Shown one piece after another: positions 2,283-19,739 of a stretch of 64,000 nt of DNA. Made by a program: the position numbers and the translations under genes. How positions within the stretch are numbered: position 1 is the first letter of the stretch; every line of letters starts with the position of its first letter. The DNA is from Chloroflexota bacterium (lineage in GTDB: Bacteria; Chloroflexota; Limnocylindria; Limnocylindrales; CSP1-4), in contig JAHBUZ010000006.1 of assembly GCA_019637815.1 (NCBI GenBank), forward strand, positions 1 through 64,000, given 5' to 3'. The notes below the pieces were generated by a model that did no database searches, was not told the DNA's origin, and was given only the letters and a program-made list of their open reading frames with translations.

Positions 2283-2873
2283 TCAGGTCTCGCGTGCCGC
2301 CAGCCAGTCGAGGATCCGGTCGGCCACCGCGTCGGGGTCCAGGTCGTCGACATCCACGATGAGGTCCGCGGCGCGCTGATAGGCCACTGCTCGTGCCTCC
2401 GCCTGACGGGTCAGCCACGCGAGGTCCGTGGCCTCCGCACGACGACCGGCACCCGAGCCGATGCGTGCCCGGAGCGTCTCGGGTCGTGCTCGCAGCCAGA
2501 CCACGGCCACGTCATCCCCGAGCGCGGTCAGCGCGTTCGGGTCCTCCACGATGGCGGCCGCGGCGCCCACGATCGACGGCGTCGGCAGGCGCAGCGCATC
2601 CAGGAGGGCACGGCTCTCGAGCGTATGGAGTGCTGCCTCACCGTCCGTGGCCCGGATCTCGGCCGGCTCACGGCCGCTCATCGCGCGCACCAGCTCGTCG
2701 TTGTCCCGATAGCGACCACCACCGCGTGCCGCGAGCAGCCGGCCGACCGTGGTCTTGCCGGACCCCATCATGCCCAGCAGCACCACGCGGGCATCGGGTG
2801 CCACGGGCGCGGCCGGTCCCGGGGTCACCCCGCTGGATGGGTCGGTGCTGGCGGTGTCGGATCGCTGCTGCAT
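2283..2873 (-). CDS. Shikimate kinase-like P-loop kinase
   Basis: 196 aa from the ATG at 2873. Walker A is GMMGSGKTTVGRLLA and is followed by a short RDNDELVR segment where shikimate kinases carry the substrate-binding DTD motif; the LID-region arginines and the C-terminal adenine-binding region are also recognisable. It probably phosphorylates shikimate or a related small hydroxylated acid. An upstream in-frame GTG at 2924 exists, but it lies inside a strong hairpin (2902-2933) that looks like the terminator of the preceding gene, so the shorter start is preferred. No other aro gene is in the window, so the substrate stays uncertain. Confidence 0.7.
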   Translation of the reverse strand: MQQRSDTASTDPSSGVTPGPAAPVAPDARVVLLGMMGSGKTTVGRLLAARGGGRYRDNDELVRAMSGREPAEIRATDGEAALHTLESRALLDALRLPTPSIVGAAAAIVEDPNALTALGDDVAVVWLRARPETLRARIGSGAGRRAEATDLAWLTRQAEARAVAYQRAADLIVDVDDLDPDAVADRILDWLAARET

Positions 2874-2901
2874 GCGCTCGGGTCGTGGTCCTGTACGTGA
2901 T

Positions 2902-2933
2902 GGAGGCCGGACGGCGATCGCCACCCGGCCTCC
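2902..2933 (-). terminator. Hairpin after CUT1 binding-protein gene
   Basis: GGAGGCCGG (2902-2910) and CCGGCCTCC (2925-2933) form a perfect 9-bp stem with a 14-nt loop, 22 nt past the stop of the binding-protein gene. There is no U-tract. It may end transcription or protect the mRNA 3' end. Confidence 0.6.
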
Positions 2934-2955
2934 GATCGATCCCGAAGGGTACCGC

Positions 2956-4248
2956 CTATGGCGCGGGGCACGCCCCGGTGCTGACGCACGCCTCGGCGAT
3001 CGCGGTCTGGGTGGCCGCGACGTCCCGCGACGTCACGAACACGTTGACGGCGTCCGTGAACGGCGTCAGGAACGCCGGGATGGTCGCCGGCCCGTTGGCC
3101 TGGCTGGGCACGAGCTCGAGGTTGCCGAAGTCCACCATGGCTGCCTGGGAGTACGCGTCATACAGGCTGGTGTCGGCATCCACGCGCGCGGGGATGGAGC
3201 CCTTCTTGGGGTTGAAGGCGTCCTGGCCCTCGACCGAGGCGAGCGTGTCCAGCCACGCGATGGCGTTGTCCTGGTTCTGGATGTCCAGCGGGATCGCGAA
3301 CGAGTCCGTGACCACCGTGAACGTCCCCTCGGTGCCGGGCACGGGTGACCAGCCGAAGTCGGAGCCGGGCGCCCAGCCGTTGGCCGTGAAGTAGCCCTTC
3401 GCCCAGTCGCCCATGACGTTGAACGCGGCACTGCCATCGAGCACCTTGCCCGCGGCCTGGTCCCACGTGAGCGTGGCATGGTCGTCGTTGACGTAGTCGA
3501 GCACCCGACCGAAGGTGGTCAGGGCGTCCGTGACGCGGGAGTCGGTCCAGGGCACGGTGCCGGCCCAGATGCCCCGGTAGTCCTCGGCGCCGAGATGGCT
3601 GAGCAGGATCTGCTCGAACAGGTTGACGTCCTCCCACTTGTCGATGTCGCCGAGGGCGAGTGGGGTGACGCCGGCTGCCTTGAGCGTGTCGGCGGCCGCG
3701 AAGAACGCGTCCCAGTCCGCGGGCGCTTCGATGCCGTGCTCCGCGAGCACCGCCGCGTTGTTCCAGAGGACGCCGTTGCGATGCACGCCCACGGGCACGG
3801 AGTAGGGCGCACCCTCGTAGCTGACGAGGTCGATGATGCCCTGCGGGAACTTGTCGCCCAGGTCGCGCTCCACGTAGAAGTCGGCGAGCGACTGGGTGAA
3901 GCCCGTCGTGACCCACGTGTCGATGAGCTCGGCGCCACCGTGGATCTGGAACGTGTCGGGCGGGTTGCCGCCGGTCATCCGGGTGGCGAGCACCGCGTTG
4001 GCGTTCGAGCCGGCACCGCCGGCGACGACCGCGTTGATGACCTCGATGCCCGGGTGCTGCTGCGCGAACACCTCCTGGATGGCAGCGAGGCCATCCGCCT
4101 CGCCACCGGCCGTCCAGTACGTGAAGATCTCCACCTGGCCACTGCCGGGTGACTGGGCGAGCACGCCGGTGCCCGCCGTGATGATGCCCGCCGCCGCGAG
4201 CGCCGCCACGCCCATCCCGCGGACGTGTGTTCCGAACCGCTGACCCAT
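2956..4248 (-). CDS. CUT1 sugar ABC transporter substrate-binding protein
   Basis: 430 aa with a Sec signal peptide (GMGVAALAAAGIITAGTGVLA-Q). The mature part begins EIFTYWTAGGEADGL and contains GGNPPDTFQIHGG, typical of glucose/mannose-type periplasmic binding proteins of the CUT1 family. The ATG at 4248 has a strong GAGGAG-type ribosome binding site; the frame stays open further upstream, but that part is not protein-like. It is divergent from a GntR regulator and two permeases that should complete the importer. A hairpin follows its stop. No ATPase gene is adjacent. Ligand inferred as a hexose or short glucoside; not proven. Confidence 0.88.
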   Translation of the reverse strand: MGQRFGTHVRGMGVAALAAAGIITAGTGVLAQSPGSGQVEIFTYWTAGGEADGLAAIQEVFAQQHPGIEVINAVVAGGAGSNANAVLATRMTGGNPPDTFQIHGGAELIDTWVTTGFTQSLADFYVERDLGDKFPQGIIDLVSYEGAPYSVPVGVHRNGVLWNNAAVLAEHGIEAPADWDAFFAAADTLKAAGVTPLALGDIDKWEDVNLFEQILLSHLGAEDYRGIWAGTVPWTDSRVTDALTTFGRVLDYVNDDHATLTWDQAAGKVLDGSAAFNVMGDWAKGYFTANGWAPGSDFGWSPVPGTEGTFTVVTDSFAIPLDIQNQDNAIAWLDTLASVEGQDAFNPKKGSIPARVDADTSLYDAYSQAAMVDFGNLELVPSQANGPATIPAFLTPFTDAVNVFVTSRDVAATQTAIAEACVSTGACPAP

Positions 4249-4285
4249 GTGTCGCTCCTGCTCCTCTGGCCTGGGAGTTGCTGGC

Positions 4286-4297
4286 CTTACCGGTAAG
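4286..4297. promoter_or_regulatory. GntR-type operator palindrome
   Basis: CTTACCGGTAAG is a perfect 12-bp palindrome in the short intergenic region between the binding-protein gene and the gntR start. Its place allows control of both directions. The TACACT box at 4312-4317 lies 7 nt before the gntR ATG and would be the -10. Confidence 0.55.
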
Positions 4298-4311
4298 ACC
4301 GGCAATACCAG

Positions 4312-4317
4312 TACACT
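4312..4317 (+). promoter_or_regulatory. -10 box of gntR-permease operon
   Basis: TACACT ends 7 nt before the ATG at 4325, so transcription should begin at or next to the start codon (leaderless). No ribosome binding site is seen before that ATG. Confidence 0.5.
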
Positions 4318-4324
4318 AGCGGCC

Positions 4325-5188
4325 ATGTCAATGCGTACCCGACCGGCCGTGCAGGTCCCGCCCGCGCGCCCGCCGATCCCCGCCGTCCCGGCCGGCCGCG
4401 CGACGGCCGGACCGCCGAGCGCCGATGGCGTCGTGCGCGCGATGTCCGACGAGATCATGTCGGGCGCGCTCGAGGAGGGGGACCGCCTGCCCTCGGAGCG
4501 GGACCTGGCGTCGCGGTTCGGGGTCGGGCGTCCGCTCATCCGGGAGGCGCTCCGCACCCTCGCGGAGCTGGGCCTCATCGAGACCGTGCCCGCGAGGGGC
4601 ACCTTCGTACGAGCCGGACACGACGTGCGCGGCAATCGGCAGGCGGCCATCGCGATGCGTCGTCGGGGCGTGACCGCCCATGAGCTGTCCGAGGCGCGCC
4701 TGATGCTCGAGACCGCGACCGCCGCCCAGGCGGCCCAGCGCGCCGAGCCCGGCGATATCACGGACCTGGAGACGATCCTCGATGCGCTCGAGCATGCGAC
4801 GGGCGTCGCCCACGTGGAGCTGGACCTCGCCTTCCACCTGGGCATCGCGAGCGCGGCCCACAACCCGGTCATCGAGATGATGCTGGAGTCCATCGCGGTG
4901 CCCACCGCGGCGCTCATGTTCCGGAGCGTCCGCGATCCACGGGTGATGGAGCGCAGCCAGCCCTACCATCGCATCGCGCTCGACGCCATCCGGGCGCACG
5001 ATCCCTCCGCGGCGTCGGAGGCGATCCGGGCCCACCTCACGGTGGCCCAGGAGCTGTACGGTCCGGACTACGAGCGGAGCGTCGATGAGCTCGCCCGCCA
5101 GGCCCTCGCCCAGCTGGGTGCGCGGACGGGCCTCGACGACCTCGTGGACCGGGTGCTGGGCGGCCGACTCGCATCACGCACGACATGA
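4325..5188 (+). CDS. GntR/FadR-family regulator (FCD domain)
   Basis: 287 aa. The winged helix covers about residues 35-100 (GDRLPSERDLASRFGVGRPLIREALRTLAELGLI). An all-helical FCD ligand domain follows, with the D...H...H pattern in ELDLAFHLGIA and the C-terminal HRIALDAIRAHD segment. FCD regulators usually sense organic acids or sugars and repress neighbouring catabolic genes. It is the first gene of an operon with two CUT1 permeases (4-base ATGA overlap), so it likely controls the sugar importer through the 4286-4297 palindrome. The ATG at 4325 was chosen because of the TACACT box 7 nt upstream. Confidence 0.87.
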   Translation: MSMRTRPAVQVPPARPPIPAVPAGRATAGPPSADGVVRAMSDEIMSGALEEGDRLPSERDLASRFGVGRPLIREALRTLAELGLIETVPARGTFVRAGHDVRGNRQAAIAMRRRGVTAHELSEARLMLETATAAQAAQRAEPGDITDLETILDALEHATGVAHVELDLAFHLGIASAAHNPVIEMMLESIAVPTAALMFRSVRDPRVMERSQPYHRIALDAIRAHDPSAASEAIRAHLTVAQELYGPDYERSVDELARQALAQLGARTGLDDLVDRVLGGRLASRTT

Positions 5189-11610: not shown

Positions 11611-12981
11611 TCAGGCGTCCGCGAAGGTCAGGAAGGTGTCCGGTCGGAGCAGGAACGGCGGCAGGCAGGCCGGGATGTTGGAGAGTGGCAGTACCTCGGG
11701 AGCGAGCGGGATGCCGAGTCGCTCGTCCATGAACGTGCGACGCGCCTGGATGCGCGTCCATGCCTCCGGATAGCGTGCCGCCAGCTCGTCGCGGAGTGGC
11801 TCGTCCGCAAGGGCGATGCCCTCCTCGATGTTGCTCGTGAAGTACTCGGTGCCGGTCGCGGGGATGATGTCGACCTGCATCACCATGCCCGAGCGGAGCG
11901 GCGCCTGCGACCCCGGCGAGATCGGGCTCGCGACCCACTCATCGAGGTGGAGCAGGTGGCCCGGGTTGAGGAAGATGCCGAAGAACGGGTCGCCGAGCCG
12001 CTCATCGATGATCGCCTGGAGCGCGCCACCCGGCAGCCCCAGTCGGAGCGCCCGATACCACGCGGCGACCGCCTCGAAGTAGGGCCGCACCAGCCGCTCG
12101 ACATAGTCCCGGATGCCAGCCGGCAACCCCGCTGCGTCCTCGGTGACGAAGCCGGCACGACACGTGAGCCCGCCCCAGATGCCGAAGGCGCTCGTGAGCG
12201 GGTCGCCCGCCTCGATGACCCGGTCGGTGGGGCCCAGGAGCCCGAACCGGGCCCGAGGACCGGCGGACAGCATCGTGTGACACGACAGCGGCGCACCGTC
12301 CCAGCGCAGCAGGCGCGCCGCCTCCTGTTCGGTCATGCCCGGCCGCAGGCCTTCGAGCAGCCCGCGGATGCCGTTCGAGGTCTGGCAGGCGGCATGCTCG
12401 AAGACCGCGATCTGGTCCGCGTCGTTGGTGGTGCGGAGGCCGTCCGTGGCATCGATGAGCAGGCCGGTGACGTTGCGCACGCTGCCCGTCGGCCCCACGA
12501 GGGCACGGATCCGGTCGACGAGATAGGACGGCGCGTCGCTCCATGCGGGGTCGCGGTAGGTCTTCCAGCCGATGATGCCGACGCGGGCGCCGGGCACGAT
12601 GCCCTCGTCGCCGAGGATGGCGTCGAGGTCGCGTGGCTGGTCCGGCAGGCTCAGGTCCTGGACGAGATGTCGCCGCATGGGGAGGGGTGCCGCGCCGGCC
12701 AGGCCCCAGCACTCGTTGCCGACCAGGATCGCGGGCTCGTCATCACCACCCGCGATGAGCACCGCTTCCTCGAACCGCGGATCGAACCCGGTGAGGAAGC
12801 GCAGGTTGGGGCTGTGCTCGCGGTCGGCGTACACGACGAGCCGGTCGAGGCCCTGTGCGCGTGCCCGTGCCATGAGCGTCGCGAGCCGGGACGCGTAGGT
12901 CGAATCCGGGAGCTGTGGCATCGACGTGGGCATCCCGAAGTCCGGGAGGCCGATCCGCGTGAGGCGTGCGTGGCTGGTCAT
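11611..12981 (-). CDS. M24 (pita-bread fold) aminopeptidase-like protein, ligands degenerate
   Basis: 456 aa. An N-terminal creatinase/prolidase-like domain (SPNLRFLTGFDPRFEEAVLI) is followed by a C-terminal M24-like domain with NPGHLLHLDEW and SGMVMQVDIIP. Active M24 peptidases bind two metals through Asp, Asp, His, Glu, Glu. The region expected to hold the two Asp (TSAFGIWGGLTCRAGF) has none, and the usual TIEP Glu is Asp, so metallopeptidase activity is doubtful; creatinase-type chemistry without metal, or a non-enzymatic role, is possible. The start overlaps the TlpA stop (ATGA), placing it last in the oxidase operon. Confidence 0.7.
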   Translation of the reverse strand: MTSHARLTRIGLPDFGMPTSMPQLPDSTYASRLATLMARARAQGLDRLVVYADREHSPNLRFLTGFDPRFEEAVLIAGGDDEPAILVGNECWGLAGAAPLPMRRHLVQDLSLPDQPRDLDAILGDEGIVPGARVGIIGWKTYRDPAWSDAPSYLVDRIRALVGPTGSVRNVTGLLIDATDGLRTTNDADQIAVFEHAACQTSNGIRGLLEGLRPGMTEQEAARLLRWDGAPLSCHTMLSAGPRARFGLLGPTDRVIEAGDPLTSAFGIWGGLTCRAGFVTEDAAGLPAGIRDYVERLVRPYFEAVAAWYRALRLGLPGGALQAIIDERLGDPFFGIFLNPGHLLHLDEWVASPISPGSQAPLRSGMVMQVDIIPATGTEYFTSNIEEGIALADEPLRDELAARYPEAWTRIQARRTFMDERLGIPLAPEVLPLSNIPACLPPFLLRPDTFLTFADA

Positions 12982-13718
12982 GTGGTCGCTCCGTGACGTG
13001 TGCCGCTCGTCGAGCCCTGGTCCGTGGGGCCCTGATCGGTCTGGTCCGGGCCCGTCGCACCGGGCGTCGCCGGCAGGATCCTCGACAGCCCGAACGCCAG
13101 GCCGGACGCGTTGAACGGGCCGATGTTCACCCAGCGCACGACCCCGTCGGCGTCGATGAAGTAGGTCTGCGGCACCCCGACACCCAGGTAGTCCCGCCAG
13201 GCCGCCTCGTCGGGATCCATGAGCATCGGCCAGGTCGCGCCTTCGGACGCCGCGAAGGCACGTGCGGACTCCGCCCCGTCGCGCCGGATGATGCCCACCA
13301 CCGCGAGCTCGCCCCGATGCTCGCCGTAGGCACCGACGAGCATCGGGAACTCCTCGCGGCAGGGTACGCACCAGCTCGCCCAGAAGTTGACGATGAGCGG
13401 CGTCCCCCGGAAGTCGGCCAGGCTGACGACCGTGCCATCGAGATCGGTGAGGGTGAACGCGGGCGCGGGCTTGCCCATGAGCGGCGAGCCGCCCACCGTG
13501 ACCCCCGATGGCTCTGCGCTCGCGCCGGGTGGGGGCGTGCCACCGGGTGTCGAGCCGAGCGGCACCACGAGCAGGATCGCGACCACCGCGAGGATGCCCA
13601 TGATCGCCACGACGCGCCACGGCGGACGACCACCGGCCCGACCTGCCGGGGGCGTCGGTGGGGATGCGTGCCCGCTGGGTGTCGGTTCGGAGGGAGGTCC
13701 GGTCGTGGAGCGATCCAC
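12978..13718 (-). CDS. Membrane-anchored TlpA/ResA-type thioredoxin
   Basis: 246 aa from a GTG 19 nt after the upstream stop. Membrane anchor at about 35-54, Pro/Gly-rich linker to 75, then a thioredoxin fold with the redox site W116-C117-V118-P119-C120 and the cis-Pro region [14 protein letters not shown]. It sits outside the membrane and probably reduces disulfides for copper insertion into, or cysteine maintenance of, the oxidase CuA/cupredoxin sites. That fits its place between the cupredoxin-fused subunit and the M24-like gene. The tail is rich in Gln/Thr/Gly and looks unstructured. Confidence 0.85.
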
Positions 13719-13737
13719 GGTGAGGCGAGCCGCCCCG

Positions 13738-14862
13738 TCAGGGGGCCGGGGGCGGCGGCGGTCCCTCCCGGACCAGGACCGTGCCCACCATCGGTGGGTG
13801 GATGGTGCACACGAAGGGGTACTCGCCCGCGGCGAGGGGCGGCAGCTGGTAATCGATCGTGGCAGGCCCGGTGATCTGCTCGCCCTGGAACAGGAACACA
13901 CCGGCGTCCGCCGGATCCTCGATGGCGACGTCGTGGGGCACCCCGGCCTGGAGGTTCTCGAACGTCAGCGTCACCGGCGTGTCCGCGGGGATGACGATGC
14001 GGCCCTGGTCGAAGTGCGTGGCAGCGGTCGCGGACAGGTATGGCGTCATCGTGACGGGCGGGCCGCCCTCCTCGGCGGTCTGCTCGGGGATGAACGTGAG
14101 CAGCCACGGGGCGAGCGTCAGCAGCACGGCCGCGACACCGATGGCGCCGAACAGGGGAGCCGCCCAACCGGGGAACACGCGCACCGGGTCCCGTTCGATG
14201 TAGCCGTGGCCACCGGTCTCGACATCCGCCAGCTCCCGGTTGGCATCCCGATACCAGCCGATCGCGGCGGCGGCGCCCATGCACAACCCGCCGATGAGCA
14301 ACAGCGGGCCCAGCACCAGGCCGAGGAACATGAACACCAGGCCGATGGGAGCGAGGAACGGCCAGGCGCTCGGGCCGGGCAGGTGGACGCCCTCGGGGAT
14401 GACCAGCTCCGCCGGCTCACCCGCGGTCAGGGCGGCGACGGGTGCGCTGTGCCCATGCGCGTCGATCGCGTCGTACTCCTGGTTGGCGTCGCGATACCAG
14501 CCGAGCGCTGCCGCGGCCGCGATGACGCCACCCACGAGCGCGAGCGGGATGTGGATGAACGAGCTCTCGCCGCCACCGATGGCCAGCGCCACGAACACCA
14601 GGAACAGACCGATGGGTGCGATGAACGGCCAGATGGATGGCGGCGGCAGGTGGACGCCGTCAGGGACCGGCCCCGCCGGCAGGGGGGCGGGCACCCGGGA
14701 GCGGTTGAGCGCCGCGTTCCGCCGCCACATCCAGGCGATGCCCAGGATGGCGAGCGGCAGCAGCCCGAACAGCAGCAGCAGCGGGATGTACTGGAGCAGC
14801 GTCTCCCAGGCCGGGGTGACGAACCGGCTCAGGAGGTCGAGGACCTGATCCCAGGGATCCAT
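13738..14862 (-). CDS. Tandem cytochrome oxidase subunit IV-like protein fused to cupredoxin
   Basis: 374 aa. After an N-terminal membrane segment come two homologous repeats, each GVHLPxPSxWPFxAPIGL, two membrane helices and a GWYRDAN end, like the small subunit IV of actinobacterial-type aa3 oxidases. Another helix precedes a C-terminal cupredoxin (about 280-365). Its type 1 copper ligands appear as His310, Cys352, His355 and Met358 (C-X2-H-X2-M, amicyanin-like). The gene lies within the oxidase operon. Inferred: an accessory subunit that carries a blue-copper electron entry site outside the membrane. A partner structure was not found in memory. Confidence 0.78.
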
Positions 14863-14897: not shown

Positions 14898-15077
14898 TCA
14901 CAGGTCGCGTGAGCCCTTGACCATCACCGCGAACCCGAAGGCCATGGCCACGCCCGTGAGCAGGAGCATGACCGCGCCGGCCAGGTCGATGGTCTCGCCG
15001 GTTCCCTGGACCACGAGGTAGAGACCGCCCACGAAGATGAAGAACGCGCCGAGGAGCAGGGTGCGTCGCCAGTCCAC
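14898..15077 (-). CDS. Small two-helix membrane protein in oxidase operon
   Basis: 59 aa from a GTG ([18 protein letters not shown]...). Two hydrophobic helices (about 7-25 and 32-52) are joined by a short QGTGETIDL turn, and the chain ends in KGSRDL. It starts 9 nt after the ctaE stop and precedes the subunit IV-like gene, so it is very likely cotranslated. Small membrane subunits of this size often accompany heme-copper oxidases. No specific family is recognised. Confidence 0.75.
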
Positions 15078-15086
15078 GTCGGTCTC

Positions 15087-15731
15087 CTACCGCAGCACGT
15101 AGATGGTCAGGAACAGGAAGATCCAGACCACGTCCACGAAGTGCCAGTAATAGTGGACCGCCTCCACCGCGACGTGGTGCTCCTTGGAGAACTGGCCGCG
15201 GAGGCCGCGTGCCAGGACCACCGCGATGCCCACGATACCGCCCAGCACGTGGGCGCCGTGGAAGCCGGTCATGACATAGAACAGGGACCCGTACACGCCG
15301 CTGTTGACGCCGAAGTCGTCGTGGCTCACGAGCGTGTAGTACTCGTACATCATGAGCCCCAGGAAGGTGACGCCCAGGATGAGGGTCAGCATGAGCGCCC
15401 GGTTCATGCCCGTCCGGTCACCCTTGCGGATGCGGCTCGTCGCCCACTGCATCGTGAACGAGCTGGCCACGAGGATGATCGTGATGAGCACCGAGATGCC
15501 GAGGCCGAACAGGCCGGATCCCTGCCAGCTGATGAACTCGGTGCCTTCCGGTGGCCACACCGGCGCGGTCGCGCGGACGTTGAAGTAGACGCCGAACAGG
15601 GCCGCGAAGAACATGATCTCGCTGGCGATGAACAGCAGCATCCCCAGCAGGGCGGGATCCATGCCCCGGCGGTGATGCGCCTCGGGCGTCTCCGGGCCGT
15701 GACCGGTCACGGGTTCCATGGCGGTGCTCAT
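15087..15731 (-). CDS. ctaE: Cytochrome c oxidase subunit III
   Basis: 214 aa with five membrane helices. Family segments include GMLLFIASEIMFFAALFGVYFN, FTMQWATSRIRKGD, TGFHGAHVLGGI and VEAVHYYWHFVDVVWIFLFLTIYVLR. The length matches the short five-helix CtaE of bacterial caa3-type oxidases. The ATG at 15731 overlaps the ctaD stop. It stabilises subunit I in the aa3 complex. Confidence 0.94.
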   Translation of the reverse strand: MSTAMEPVTGHGPETPEAHHRRGMDPALLGMLLFIASEIMFFAALFGVYFNVRATAPVWPPEGTEFISWQGSGLFGLGISVLITIILVASSFTMQWATSRIRKGDRTGMNRALMLTLILGVTFLGLMMYEYYTLVSHDDFGVNSGVYGSLFYVMTGFHGAHVLGGIVGIAVVLARGLRGQFSKEHHVAVEAVHYYWHFVDVVWIFLFLTIYVLR

Positions 15732-17374
15732 TCGGCGGTCCCCGCAGGCAGGGCCGGTGCAGCGGCGATGGGCGCGTGGCCTCCACCACCATGCTTCAGA
15801 TCGAACACCGGACGCTCCGAGTGGATGGGTGGCAGATGGTCGAAGTTGTAGACCGGTGGCGGGCTGGTCGTGGCCCACTCCAGGGTGTAGCCATCCCACG
15901 GGTCATCACCCGCGTTCACCGGCCCGCGCAGCGTGGCGAACACGTTCCACATGAACGGCAGCACGGACGCGGCGATGAAGAACGCGCCGATGGTGGACAG
16001 GAGGTTGAGCTCCGACCAGCCGGCGTTCGCGGAGTAGTCCGCGACCCGCCGGATCATGCCGTCCAGGCCCAGCATGTGCTGGGGGAAGAAGGTCAGGTTG
16101 GTGCCGATGAACAGCAGCCAGAACTGGACCTTCCCGGAGCGCTCGTTGAGGCGTCGACCGGTCATCTTGGGGAACCAGTAGAAGAGCGCCGCGAAGATCG
16201 AGAACATCGCGCCCGCCACGAGGACGTAGTGGATGTGCGAGACGACCCAGTAGGTGTCCTGGACCATGAAGTCGAAGGGCACGACGGCGAGGAACGCGCC
16301 GTCCAGGCCGCCGATGAGGAACAGCGCGATGAAGCCGCAGGCGTACAGCATCGGCGTGTCGAAGGTCAGCTTGCCGCGCCACATGGTGGCCAGCCAGTTG
16401 AAGAACTTGATGCCTGTGGGTACCGCGATCAGGAACGTGAAGAAGCTGAAGAAGGGCAGGTAGACCGCACCCGTCGTGAACATGTGGTGCGCCCACACGG
16501 TGAAGCCGAGCGCGCCGATGGAGGCCGTCGCGAACACGAACGCGCGATAGCCGAACAGCGGTTTGCGCGAGAACACCGGGAGGATCTCACTGATGATGCC
16601 GAACGCCGGCAGGATCAGGATGTACACCTCCGGGTGGCCGAAGAACCAGAACACGTGCTGCCACAGGATGGGGTTGCCACCCAGGGAGGGCTCGAAGAAG
16701 CCGCCGCCGTAGTTGCGGTCGATGAAGATCATCACGAGGCCCGCGGTGACGACCGGCACGGAGAACAGCAGCAGGACCGCCGTCACCAGCTGCGCCCAGC
16801 AGAACATGGGCATCCGCAGCAGGGTCATGCCCGGGGCGCGCAGTCGGAAGATGGTCACCAGGAAGTTGATGGAGCCGAGGATGGACGAGATGCCGGTCAT
16901 GATCAGGCCGAGCACCATCAGGTCCACGCCCGTCTCCGGCTGGCGCGTCGAGAGCGGTGCGTAGAGCGTCCAGCCCGTGGGCGAGCCGCCGAACAGGAAC
17001 GACATCTCGATGATGATCGCGCCGCCCAGGAAGACCCAGAACGAGAGCGCGTTCACGCGCGGGAAGGCCATGTCCGCCGCGCCCACCTGGATGGGCACGA
17101 TGTAGTTGCCGAGGCCCGTGAACATCGGCATCACGAACAGGAAGATCATGTTGATGGCGTGGAGGCCGAAGACGCTGTTGTACTGCTCGGCCGTCACGAA
17201 CTGGAGACCGGGCGCCGCGAGCTCGGTCCGGATCACCAGGGCCAGGATGCCGCCGATGAGGAAGCACACGAAGGCCGTGACCATGTACATGATCCCGATC
17301 TTCTTGTGGTCCACCGTGGTGATCCACTCGTAGATCCATGAGCGGCGGTAGGTCGGGGCGTGCGGGTGTGCCAT
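15728..17374 (-). CDS. ctaD: Cytochrome c oxidase subunit I
   Basis: 548 aa, 12 or more helices. Heme and copper ligands are visible: the low-spin heme His in GLHAINMIF, CuB His and cross-linked Tyr in GHPEVYILILP, the His pair in WAHHMFTTG and the heme His pair in VVSHIHYVLVAG. GHPEVY with the preceding Glu-type D-channel layout places it in the A-type heme-copper oxidases. It reduces O2 to water and pumps protons. The start ATG at 17374 has a GAGG ribosome binding site and is 11 nt after the ctaC stop. Confidence 0.96.
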   Translation of the reverse strand: MAHPHAPTYRRSWIYEWITTVDHKKIGIMYMVTAFVCFLIGGILALVIRTELAAPGLQFVTAEQYNSVFGLHAINMIFLFVMPMFTGLGNYIVPIQVGAADMAFPRVNALSFWVFLGGAIIIEMSFLFGGSPTGWTLYAPLSTRQPETGVDLMVLGLIMTGISSILGSINFLVTIFRLRAPGMTLLRMPMFCWAQLVTAVLLLFSVPVVTAGLVMIFIDRNYGGGFFEPSLGGNPILWQHVFWFFGHPEVYILILPAFGIISEILPVFSRKPLFGYRAFVFATASIGALGFTVWAHHMFTTGAVYLPFFSFFTFLIAVPTGIKFFNWLATMWRGKLTFDTPMLYACGFIALFLIGGLDGAFLAVVPFDFMVQDTYWVVSHIHYVLVAGAMFSIFAALFYWFPKMTGRRLNERSGKVQFWLLFIGTNLTFFPQHMLGLDGMIRRVADYSANAGWSELNLLSTIGAFFIAASVLPFMWNVFATLRGPVNAGDDPWDGYTLEWATTSPPPVYNFDHLPPIHSERPVFDLKHGGGGHAPIAAAPALPAGTAE

Positions 17375-17385
17375 CTGAGCCTCGC

Positions 17386-18504
17386 CTACTGGAGCGTGAG
17401 CGTGCCGGTCATGTTGGCGTGCACGCTGCAATAGAAGGTATACGCACCGGCCGGCATGGGCGGTGTCGTGTAGACCGCCTTCTGGCCGGGACCCGCGATG
17501 GGCAGACCGATCCAGTCCGAGCCGTCGGGGTTCGCGCCCCGGATGGCGACGTTGTGGGGCGCCTCAGGGTCGGGGTTGTCCAGCTGGATGGTCAGGGGTG
17601 TGTCTGCGAGACCCGTGAGCTCGGTCGGCTCGTAGCCCGCGGCCGTGCTGATGGAGGTCACCTGGAGCACCGAGCCCGCGGGCCCGCCACTGGGCAGGGG
17701 CGGCGGCGTCTGGCGTGCCTTCTCCTGCTCGTCCGCGACCCACTGGTCATACGTCGCGCGGTCGACCGCGCGGACCGTGAAGTACATCGCGTCATGGGCG
17801 AGGCCACAGAACTCCGCGCACTGGCCGCCGAAGGTACCTTCCTCCTCGATCGTCACCTCGAACTGGTTGACGCGACCGGGCACCAGGTCCAGCTTGCGGA
17901 AGAACTGGGGGACGTAGAACGAGTGGATGACGTCCAGGGCATGGAGTCGGATGAGGATGGACTCGTTGATGGGCACCACCATCTCGGGTCCCTCGCTGCC
18001 GGCGCCCGTGAAGGAGAGCTGCTCGGCGGGGTAGTCGAACGTCCACTGCCACTGGAAGCCCGTGACGTCCACCGTGACCGCGGGTTCATCCGAGGTGGCC
18101 TCGACATCCATGAGGACCGAGGTGGAGACGATGAACAGGATGGTCACGATGAGCGCGGGGATGGCCGTCCAGACCACCTCCAGGAGGTTGTTGCCGTGGG
18201 TCTGGCTGGGCAGCACGTCGTCGCCCTTCCGACGCCGGAAGCGCAGCGCGATGACCAGCAGCAGGCCCTCCACGAGCACGAACACCGCGACCGCGATGAC
18301 GAAGATCGGCAGATAGAGGTCCGCAGCAGCACGGCCCTGCTCCGTGACGACCTGGCCGGGCAGCAGACCCGGGACGGCGCTGTCGCTGGTGGGCCGGTCA
18401 TCGGTGCGGGTGGCACAGGCGGCGAGAAGGAGCGCTGCCAGGACCGCGACCCCGATCACCGATGATCGTCGGAGCGCGGTGCGGACAGCTCTGGTGACGC
18501 GCAA
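17386..18504 (-). CDS. ctaC: Cytochrome c oxidase subunit II with C-terminal cupredoxin
   Basis: 372 aa from a TTG start with GGGAGG just upstream; an internal GTG is the alternative. Lipobox LLLAAC, two membrane helices, then the CuA domain: His194, Cys229, Glu231, Cys233, His237, Met240. Where caa3 oxidases carry a cytochrome c domain, this has a second cupredoxin (about 270-372) with type 1 copper ligands His317, Cys359, His362, Met365 (C-X2-H-X2-M). No CXXCH heme site is present. It is the first gene of the operon and divergent from ctaG. The copper domain probably relays electrons to CuA. Confidence 0.92.
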   Translation of the reverse strand: MRVTRAVRTALRRSSVIGVAVLAALLLAACATRTDDRPTSDSAVPGLLPGQVVTEQGRAAADLYLPIFVIAVAVFVLVEGLLLVIALRFRRRKGDDVLPSQTHGNNLLEVVWTAIPALIVTILFIVSTSVLMDVEATSDEPAVTVDVTGFQWQWTFDYPAEQLSFTGAGSEGPEMVVPINESILIRLHALDVIHSFYVPQFFRKLDLVPGRVNQFEVTIEEEGTFGGQCAEFCGLAHDAMYFTVRAVDRATYDQWVADEQEKARQTPPPLPSGGPAGSVLQVTSISTAAGYEPTELTGLADTPLTIQLDNPDPEAPHNVAIRGANPDGSDWIGLPIAGPGQKAVYTTPPMPAGAYTFYCSVHANMTGTLTLQ

Positions 18505-18546
18505 GTGCCTCCCTCGTGACTTCCATGCTGGGTTCAGGGACCGGCC

Positions 18547-18552
18547 TATGAT
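18547..18552 (+). promoter_or_regulatory. -10 box of ctaG
   Basis: TATGAT ends 8 nt before the ATG at 18561 (5 nt before an in-frame GTG at 18558). The message would be leaderless or nearly so; no ribosome binding site is seen. Confidence 0.55.
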
Positions 18553-18560
18553 ACGGGGTG

Positions 18561-19739
18561 ATGACCCGTCTCGTGGGGTCGCGGAGGGTGGTGTCGGCCC
18601 TGGCCGCGGCGGCACTGCCCCTGTCGCTGCCCGCCGTGGCGTCCGCCCACGGCGTCGTGGACGAGCCCCCGGACATCGGCATGGTGCTCACCGGCTGGTC
18701 GTTCGGCATCGAGGTCTGGCTGCCGCTGTTGCTGGCGGCGTGGGGCTATCTGGTGCTCGTCCGGTCGGTCGATCGGGCGCATCCCGCGAACCCCGTGCCG
18801 CGTCGGCGGGTGTGGTGCTGGCTGGCTGGCCTCGGCGTGCTGCTGGTGGCCACCGAGTCCGTCATCGGCCGATACGACACCACGCTGTTCACGTTCCACA
18901 TGGTCCAGCACCTGCTGCTGACCATGGTGGCGGCACCGCTGCTGCTGCTGGGCGCACCCGTGACGCTGCTGCTGCGTGCGGCGACCCCCGAGGTGCGCCG
19001 TCGCTGGATCCTGCCCGTGCTCCACTCGCGGGTCGTGAAGACGCTGGGTCATCCGTTCGTGGCGTGGACCCAGTTCGCGGTGGTCATGTGGGCGAGCCAC
19101 TTCACGCCCCTGTTCGATGCCGCGCTCGAGGACCCCATCATCCACCTCCTGGAGCACGCGCTGTACCTGGGCTCCGCGCTGCTGTTCTGGTGGCCCGTGG
19201 TGGGCGTCGATCCCGCACCGCGCCGGCTGTCGTACCCCATGCGCATCGGGTACGTCCTCGTGGGGATGCCCTTCAGCTCGTTCCTGGGGCTCGCCATCTA
19301 CTCCGCGACGAACCCGCTGTACGAGCACTACGCCACGATCGAGCGGGACTGGGGACAGTCGCCGCTCGTGGACCAGCAATGGGCCGGCGGCATCATGTGG
19401 GCCGGTGGGGACGCCGCGTTCCTGGTGGCGATGGTCCTCATGATCGCGGCGTGGCTGCGCGCCGAGGAGGCCGAGGGGAGGCGGGTGGACGCCATCCTCG
19501 CCCGCGAACGCGCTGCGGGGCAGGCAGCGCCGGCGGTGGGGGGCGTGTCTGCACCTGGGAGAGTGCCGGCGGCCGAGGGAGTGCCGGCGGCCGGGGAAGT
19601 GGCGGCGGCCGGGGAAGTGGCGGGAGCAGTACTCGCAGCCGGCGTAGTGCCCGCGGCCGAGGGAGTGCCGACCGTGCCGGCGCGGGACGTGCCGGCACAG
19701 CCCAGGGAGCGGGCGGAGCGAGGGCCGGACGCAGCCTGA
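18561..19739 (+). CDS. ctaG: CtaG-type cytochrome oxidase assembly protein
   Basis: 392 aa. N-terminal signal or first helix, then about seven membrane helices with caa3_CtaG signatures: FTFHMVQHLLLTMVAAPLLLLGAP, FAVVMWASHFTPLFDAALE, HLLEHALYLGSALLFWWPV. The paired His residues are candidates for copper handling. The last about 90 residues are low complexity, with degenerate VPAAEGVPAAGEVAAAGEV units that look like slipped repeats and are probably cytoplasmic and disordered. It is divergent from ctaC; a GTG at 18558 is a possible start. Confidence 0.88.
   Translation: MTRLVGSRRVVSALAAAALPLSLPAVASAHGVVDEPPDIGMVLTGWSFGIEVWLPLLLAAWGYLVLVRSVDRAHPANPVPRRRVWCWLAGLGVLLVATESVIGRYDTTLFTFHMVQHLLLTMVAAPLLLLGAPVTLLLRAATPEVRRRWILPVLHSRVVKTLGHPFVAWTQFAVVMWASHFTPLFDAALEDPIIHLLEHALYLGSALLFWWPVVGVDPAPRRLSYPMRIGYVLVGMPFSSFLGLAIYSATNPLYEHYATIERDWGQSPLVDQQWAGGIMWAGGDAAFLVAMVLMIAAWLRAEEAEGRRVDAILARERAAGQAAPAVGGVSAPGRVPAAEGVPAAGEVAAAGEVAGAVLAAGVVPAAEGVPTVPARDVPAQPRERAERGPDAA

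Follow-up and report, generated by a model that had tools for sequence, protein, structure and literature searches.

The 64,000-nucleotide stretch of Chloroflexota DNA analysed here (the window) carries a cytochrome c oxidase gene cluster whose fifth gene encodes a membrane protein with an internal repeat and a C-terminal copper domain, and it raises the question of what such a protein contributes to the enzyme. The cluster lies on the reverse strand and begins with subunit II (17386–18615, a Pfam match; start uncertain), which has its own C-terminal cupredoxin (17395–17646), followed by subunit I (15728–17374; PF00115, E 2.9e-159), whose start is inferred as an ATG within ORF 15728–17431. Next come subunit III (15087–15731, 214 aa), a 59-residue ORF with a GTG start (14898–15077) and the gene in question (13738–14862, 374 aa), here called the two-unit gene. 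A TlpA/ResA-like thiol-disulfide protein follows (12978–13718; PF00578, E 1.6e-25; start inferred as a GTG within ORF 12978–13901). Upstream of the cluster, a CtaG-type oxidase assembly factor is encoded divergently on the forward strand (18558–19739; PF09678, E 8.2e-80). One COX1 gene was detected in this genome, from an assembly that is 87% complete, and the only aa3-type oxidase detected is that of the two-unit gene's own operon, with which its product very probably belongs.

The first-pass annotation had claimed that two copies of a hairpin module stand in tandem in this one chain, ahead of the cupredoxin. Both copies run from GVHLPxPSxWPF through a hairpin to GWYRDAN, at residues 68–128 (unit 1; 14479–14661) and 157–209 (unit 2; 14236–14394), and their local alignment holds 38 identities in 74 columns. 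BLASTP with composition-based statistics gave E 2.5e-18 for this pair. The self-alignment score of 201 stands far above the best scores among 5000 plain shuffles (60; z about 30) and 5000 shuffles preserving the hydrophobic/other pattern (71; z about 23). The self-similarity therefore persists after correction for composition, and chance or composition is ruled out as its cause. At the nucleotide level the two copies agree in 112 of 190 aligned columns. The duplication is certain, and the fusion of the duplicated module to a cupredoxin in the same chain is likewise upheld. The first-pass annotation mentioned neither the small upstream ORF that resembles the remaining half of CtaF nor the spread of the double unit through a lineage.

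An AlphaFold2 model of the whole protein (mean pLDDT 78.3, pTM 0.54, linkers poor) consists of six long helices and then a C-terminal beta domain, in agreement with the five or six helices predicted beforehand. A short helix and the first long helix (residues 3–54; 14701–14856) form a block of uncertain quality, with pLDDT of 45–81. The two hairpins come next, and the last long helix (residues 234–257; 14092–14163) runs into the cupredoxin domain (residues 270–366; 13765–14055; PF13473, E 9.4e-9). Residues 2–56 resemble the start of a small membrane protein of the same genome (L003 1501–1668, contig G000:C22; 39%, E 5e-6), whose gene lies upstream of one that looks cytochrome c biogenesis-like by eye.

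We addressed the identity of the repeated unit with a profile built from 20 units and searched against all PDB chains. At E ≤ 10 this profile matched 24 distinct sequences, every one an oxidase chain (subunit III, subunit I or Thermus I+III), with a best E of 1.7e-7. The matched region comprises helices 1–2 of subunit III, about 50 positions from H-x3-P-S-x-W-P to W-x2-D-x3-E, and thus includes the terminal motif. Profiles of either copy alone, built from 10 sequences each, also reached PDB subunit III chains (first copy, E 6.2e-8; second copy, E 1.5e-6); the first-copy search also gave five rows with E above 1, namely four subunit I chains and one ND2 chain. Helices 3–7 of COX3 are absent from the two-unit chain and are encoded by the separate ORF 15087–15731.

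The module had initially been labelled as subunit IV, and this name stands only in the sense of actinobacterial CtaF (PF12270, Cyt_c_ox_IV) and only for the C-terminal half of CtaF. The C-terminal half of PF12270 matches 15 of the 20 units at E ≤ 10 (best 8.9e-7). The window protein itself scores 13.0 bits, below the Pfam cut-off of 26.9, and no other subunit IV family (for example the COX4_pro types) is among the three Pfam families that it matches at E ≤ 1; the stronger match is to subunit III helices 1–2. Among 61 genomes of relatives PF12270 was present at E ≤ 1e-3 in 39 and above cut-off in 31, some of these in each case being four-helix CtaF genes; the matches on the units fall mostly at profile positions of about 78–126, and some begin from 32. 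According to a review (PMC8361435), CtaF of M. smegmatis provides the counterparts of helices 1 and 2 of subunit III, and a unit that matches both subunit III helices 1–2 and the CtaF C-terminal half is consistent with this. The DUF7541 family (PF24396) matches seven of the 20 units of the window protein and its relatives at E ≤ 10 (best 2.5e-6), and may be another hairpin-bearing oxidase subunit family.

Structural comparison pointed the same way. Modelled alone (pLDDT 76.9), the membrane part gave no Foldseek match at E ≤ 0.001 (best 0.049), and its weak matches at ranks 1–8 were all subunit III or CtaF chains (E 0.049 to 0.69). VIA placed residues 64–138 onto residues 2–75 of subunit III with an rmsd mostly of about 2–3 and a Z of about 7, a middling value for helices that unrelated helical chains equal. 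We take these model-based comparisons as support, not proof. Searches with the whole model by Foldseek and VIA list the copper domain, and the lack of subunit III there proves nothing. It is nearly certain that the unit is the subunit III helix 1–2/CtaF module.

The operon's subunit III has a complementary gap. It aligns to PF00510 only over positions 76–255 of 258, and its sequence begins shortly before that point, making it a short form without helices 1–2. Inspection of the window's subunit I revealed no hairpin at its C-terminal end, and the two unit matches in the genome both fall inside the two-unit protein. Across the phylum, 173 of 301 genomes, the window's own counted, contain a unit match. 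Among the ORFs inspected, L079 and L080 have the unit at the end of subunit I, and L073, L074, L075, L077 and L078 have it as a small single protein. It lies in CtaF-like regions in L033–L036 and L039, and is doubled in the two-unit family and L076. Sister family f4 (L073, L075) and six of the named-genome loci described below have a single-unit gene in the slot of the two-unit gene; in family f3 (L074) it lies between subunits II and III, which is not the same slot. The CtaF-like proteins of L033–L036 and L039 match both halves of PF12270, and in L033 and L036 the gene comes just after a subunit I ORF, in a different oxidase cluster.

In the window, the N- and C-terminal helix pairs of CtaF are not in one chain, the candidates being the ORFs 14898–15077 and 13738–14862. 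The 59-residue ORF has two hydrophobic stretches and resembles CtaF helices 1–2 by profile. In profile–profile comparison, a profile of 18 such small ORFs matched the N-terminal half of the relatives' CtaF-like proteins at 96.9%, and the unit profile matched the C-terminal half at 97.1%, the CtaF reference profile comprising only four sequences; units and small ORFs did not match each other (9.9%). Against the PDB the top match of the small-ORF profile was mycobacterial CtaF, at a weak E of 0.031, with a further CtaF match at 9.4. No Pfam family name was obtained for the window's ORF, and PF12270 was not found for the 18 small ORFs among the matches listed, which span 25 of 34 Pfam families. 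The best support for the small ORF as the other half of CtaF comes from two natural fusions, L157 of Candidatus Aquidulcis (2405–3268) and L158 from a record labelled Actinobacteria bacterium (3745–4617). In each of them, downstream of subunit III, the small domain is followed in a single chain by one unit, then a helix and a cupredoxin. PF12270 covers both halves of L157 (E 1.1e-4) and the C-terminal half only of L158 (E 2.7e-4). Splitting of an ancestral CtaF is thus quite a likely origin for the two neighbouring genes.

The copper domain has the fold and the His-Cys-His-Met ligands of a type-1 (blue) cupredoxin. Its ligands H310, C352, H355 and M358 are kept in all 21 aligned proteins, the window's included. 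The top solved structures were Chloroflexota auracyanins (Z 12.8 and 12.7), with other cupredoxins tied at Z 12; superposition by VIA on auracyanin 6kol gave Z 12.8 and an rmsd of 2.2 over 98 residues. The C-x2-H-x2-M spacing of the ligands is comparable to the amicyanin loop. Four type-1 ligands are typical of electron carriers, not of copper donors, and the simplest reading of the sequence is that the domain may act as an electron carrier.

This bears on an alternative in which the protein is an assembly factor absent from the mature enzyme, its membrane part holding nascent subunit III or I while the cupredoxin and TlpA handle copper for CuA. The neighbouring genes favour this idea, since a TlpA-like gene comes next in all 17 of the family-f1 regions described below and is present in 50 of 65 two-unit loci, CtaG is encoded divergently in the window, and loci of the Aquidulcis type pair the two-unit gene with TlpA in a stretch without any cox gene. 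However, the invariant ligand set is carrier-like rather than donor-like, and the same TlpA slot also follows single-unit genes that have no cupredoxin. We consider an assembly role unlikely.

Subunit II offers a second copper domain in the same operon. Its ORFs carry their own C-terminal cupredoxin in 53 of 60 cases, a figure pooled from overlapping sets in which some genomes are counted twice. Derivation of the two-unit protein's domain from the same operon's subunit II did not emerge from a tree of 116 distinct domains, in which the two kinds interleave. Among subunit II domains, a genome's own was the nearest in 10 of 31 genomes, and in the window it ranked 30 of 31. Exchange between subunit II and the two-unit protein may have occurred in some lineages, and not in the window. 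Elsewhere in the window's genome, a Rieske gene is directly followed by a gene (L193 994–2367, G000:C2) for a cytochrome c that also bears a plastocyanin-like domain, whose score only just reaches the Pfam cut-off.

How far the doubled form extends was evaluated in relatives. Named genomes were first scanned with only the window protein, which confirmed nothing; the two-unit family alignment returned 77 loci, 69 with a two-unit ORF and eight with a single-unit ORF. Their labels are mostly Chloroflexi/Chloroflexota, Candidatus Limnocylindrales or Aquidulcis, the last two belonging to class Candidatus Limnocylindria at NCBI, and the few others (Cellulomonas, Actinobacteria, Thermoflexus) may be mislabelled bins. 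Four of the 69 two-unit loci are of Dehalococcoidia type (L177, L178, L180 and L181, L180 being labelled only Chloroflexota). In the other 65, the small ORF lies upstream in 64 and a cupredoxin follows in the same ORF in 57; of the eight without it, seven are cut by contig ends and one contains unknown bases. Subunit III is found in 48 of these 65 loci within the stretch examined, which is also the scope of the TlpA count above. In six of the eight single-unit loci the unit sits between subunit III and TlpA, and its ORF contains neither the small ORF nor a cupredoxin; the remaining two are the fusions L157 and L158. None of the COX1 or COX3 ORFs in the 77 loci (60 COX3 ORFs) contains a unit.

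The gene order is conserved. The 20 regions compared comprised 17 from family f1 and three from family f2, and the order COX3, small ORF, two-unit gene, TlpA holds in 17 of 17 family-f1 regions and in the window. Subunit I is present in 16 and subunit II in 15 of those 17; the other regions are cut off at a contig end. The three family-f2 regions show no COX1–3, and one of them (L100) also lacks the two-unit gene. A search of 61 genomes gave matches in 56, but many of these are to the cupredoxin alone, and the figure does not measure how common the doubled form is. The two-unit form is common to a lineage and not private to the window, and a private or recent duplication is ruled out by its presence in relatives across two families of the order.

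The history of the duplication was examined in a midpoint-rooted tree of 148 units, retained from 153 extracted after removal of identical or gappy rows. The best split (no support value) places all 63 second units outside Dehalococcoidia on one side and 52 of 64 first units on the other, a score of 115 of 127 against a maximum of 81 in 200 label shuffles. The 12 exceptional first units, the window's included, belong to proteins with W-P in both copies, and may be explained by gene conversion or retention of old features; with these 12 on the wrong side of the split, a single clean duplication event is not provable. In the Dehalococcoidia-type loci the two units stand at the end of a 384–396 aa ORF before subunit II, and cupredoxin is absent from these ORFs. 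Their copies are 59–68% identical to one another, compared with 36–62% for the copies of the remaining proteins; the units of the other family share on average 33%, and at most 47%, identity with copy 1 of L177. To judge from these identities, the Dehalococcoidia-type pair is likely a separate duplication. A tandem hairpin pair also ends the ORF L076 6234–7427 on the reverse strand, just upstream of subunit II, as in those four loci (384–398 aa).

Conservation also bears on whether the second hairpin is a relic, drifting without added function. A 21-sequence alignment does have unequal numbers of invariant columns, six in unit 1 and 10 in unit 2. Against drift, the P, H, P, P, P and W of unit 1 do not vary across ten diverse proteins; unit 1 also matches mitochondrial subunit III better than unit 2 does, and both units are retained in 65 loci. 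A relic is very improbable.

Another reading is that the protein links a supercomplex: one hairpin would bind subunit III of an oxidase and the other a bc-type complex or a second oxidase, with the copper domain as a bridge. The motif residues are kept in both copies, and the review cited above reports that CtaE and CtaF mediate complex III contacts in M. smegmatis (PMC8361435). In Candidatus Aquidulcis WB6_2A_267, the cox genes are accompanied by a single-unit fused gene (L157), and the two-unit gene lies on a different contig (L130). Given this separation, the two-unit protein may not be a permanent part of the oxidase in Candidatus Aquidulcis, and the arrangement may reflect a linker or assembly role. 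L101 and L102, relatives of L130, have a gene for a cytochrome c–cupredoxin in the stretch around the two-unit gene, and L101 also has a Rieske gene, recognised by eye from its motif. However, both copies could pack on one oxidase, and we regard a linker as quite unlikely. A more far-reaching version, also improbable, is a wired respirasome without a mobile carrier. There the doubled hairpin would clamp the oxidase's subunit III together with a bc-type complex or a second oxidase, and electrons would travel from quinol oxidation to oxygen along a fixed relay of copper sites made up of the chain's own cupredoxin, that of subunit II and the cytochrome c–cupredoxin fusion beside the Rieske gene.

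Together these data favour a model, to which we assign a probability of about two in three, where the two-unit protein derives from a split CtaF, with its subunit-III-type hairpin doubled and fused to an auracyanin/amicyanin-like carrier, and serves the aa3-type oxidase of its own operon. The model draws on the duplication, the likeness of each copy to subunit III helices 1–2, the lack of those helices in subunit III, the copper ligands and the conserved operon. A CtaF-type ancestor would have split, its N-terminal helix pair becoming the 59-residue ORF just upstream, and its C-terminal pair, equivalent to subunit III helices 1–2, would have been duplicated in tandem and linked by the last helix to a type-1 copper domain lying outside the membrane. 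At least one hairpin is then likely to pack on the short subunit III, restoring the two missing helices and their lipid cleft, and the small ORF would take the position of CtaF helices 1–2. The last helix would place the copper domain at the outer face near CuA. From there, and with odds somewhat better than even, the tethered cupredoxin may pass electrons from a quinol-oxidising complex to the CuA site in subunit II.

Known systems share parts of this design. Subunit III of mitochondria and Rhodobacter has the same H-x3-P-S-x-W-P start, two helices and W-x2-D-x3-E end as each unit, but in one copy and in a chain with helices 3–7, whereas the window protein has two copies in a separate chain. 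The C-terminal half of actinobacterial CtaF resembles the units and its N-terminal half the small ORF, but CtaF is a single chain that has just one hairpin and lacks a copper domain, where the window has a split, doubled and fused form. The aa3-600 quinol oxidase subunit I and Thermus I+III bear the same hairpin in their C-terminal part with a weaker match (Thermus I+III was not listed as a match for second copies), but there it belongs to the subunit I chain. Auracyanin and amicyanin, which are blue copper electron carriers, share the cupredoxin fold and ligand spacing, but the window's copper domain is anchored behind six predicted membrane helices. In caa3 oxidases the cytochrome c fused to subunit II is a tethered electron donor, a comparable idea; in the window the putative donor is instead a copper domain, present on both subunit II and the CtaF-like chain. 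We found no published description of a doubled, cupredoxin-fused hairpin subunit in the open-access literature searched.

The first two helices of subunit III thus appear as a movable part: besides subunit III itself, they occur terminally in subunit I, stand alone or form part of CtaF, and in the window they are doubled and tied to a copper carrier. Comparing relatives in which one or two copies accompany these oxidase genes offers a route to the function of the helices and their lipid cleft. The analysis also puts forward a candidate identity for a small ORF without a Pfam name, and indicates that a copper-based electron supply may operate in this uncultured class.
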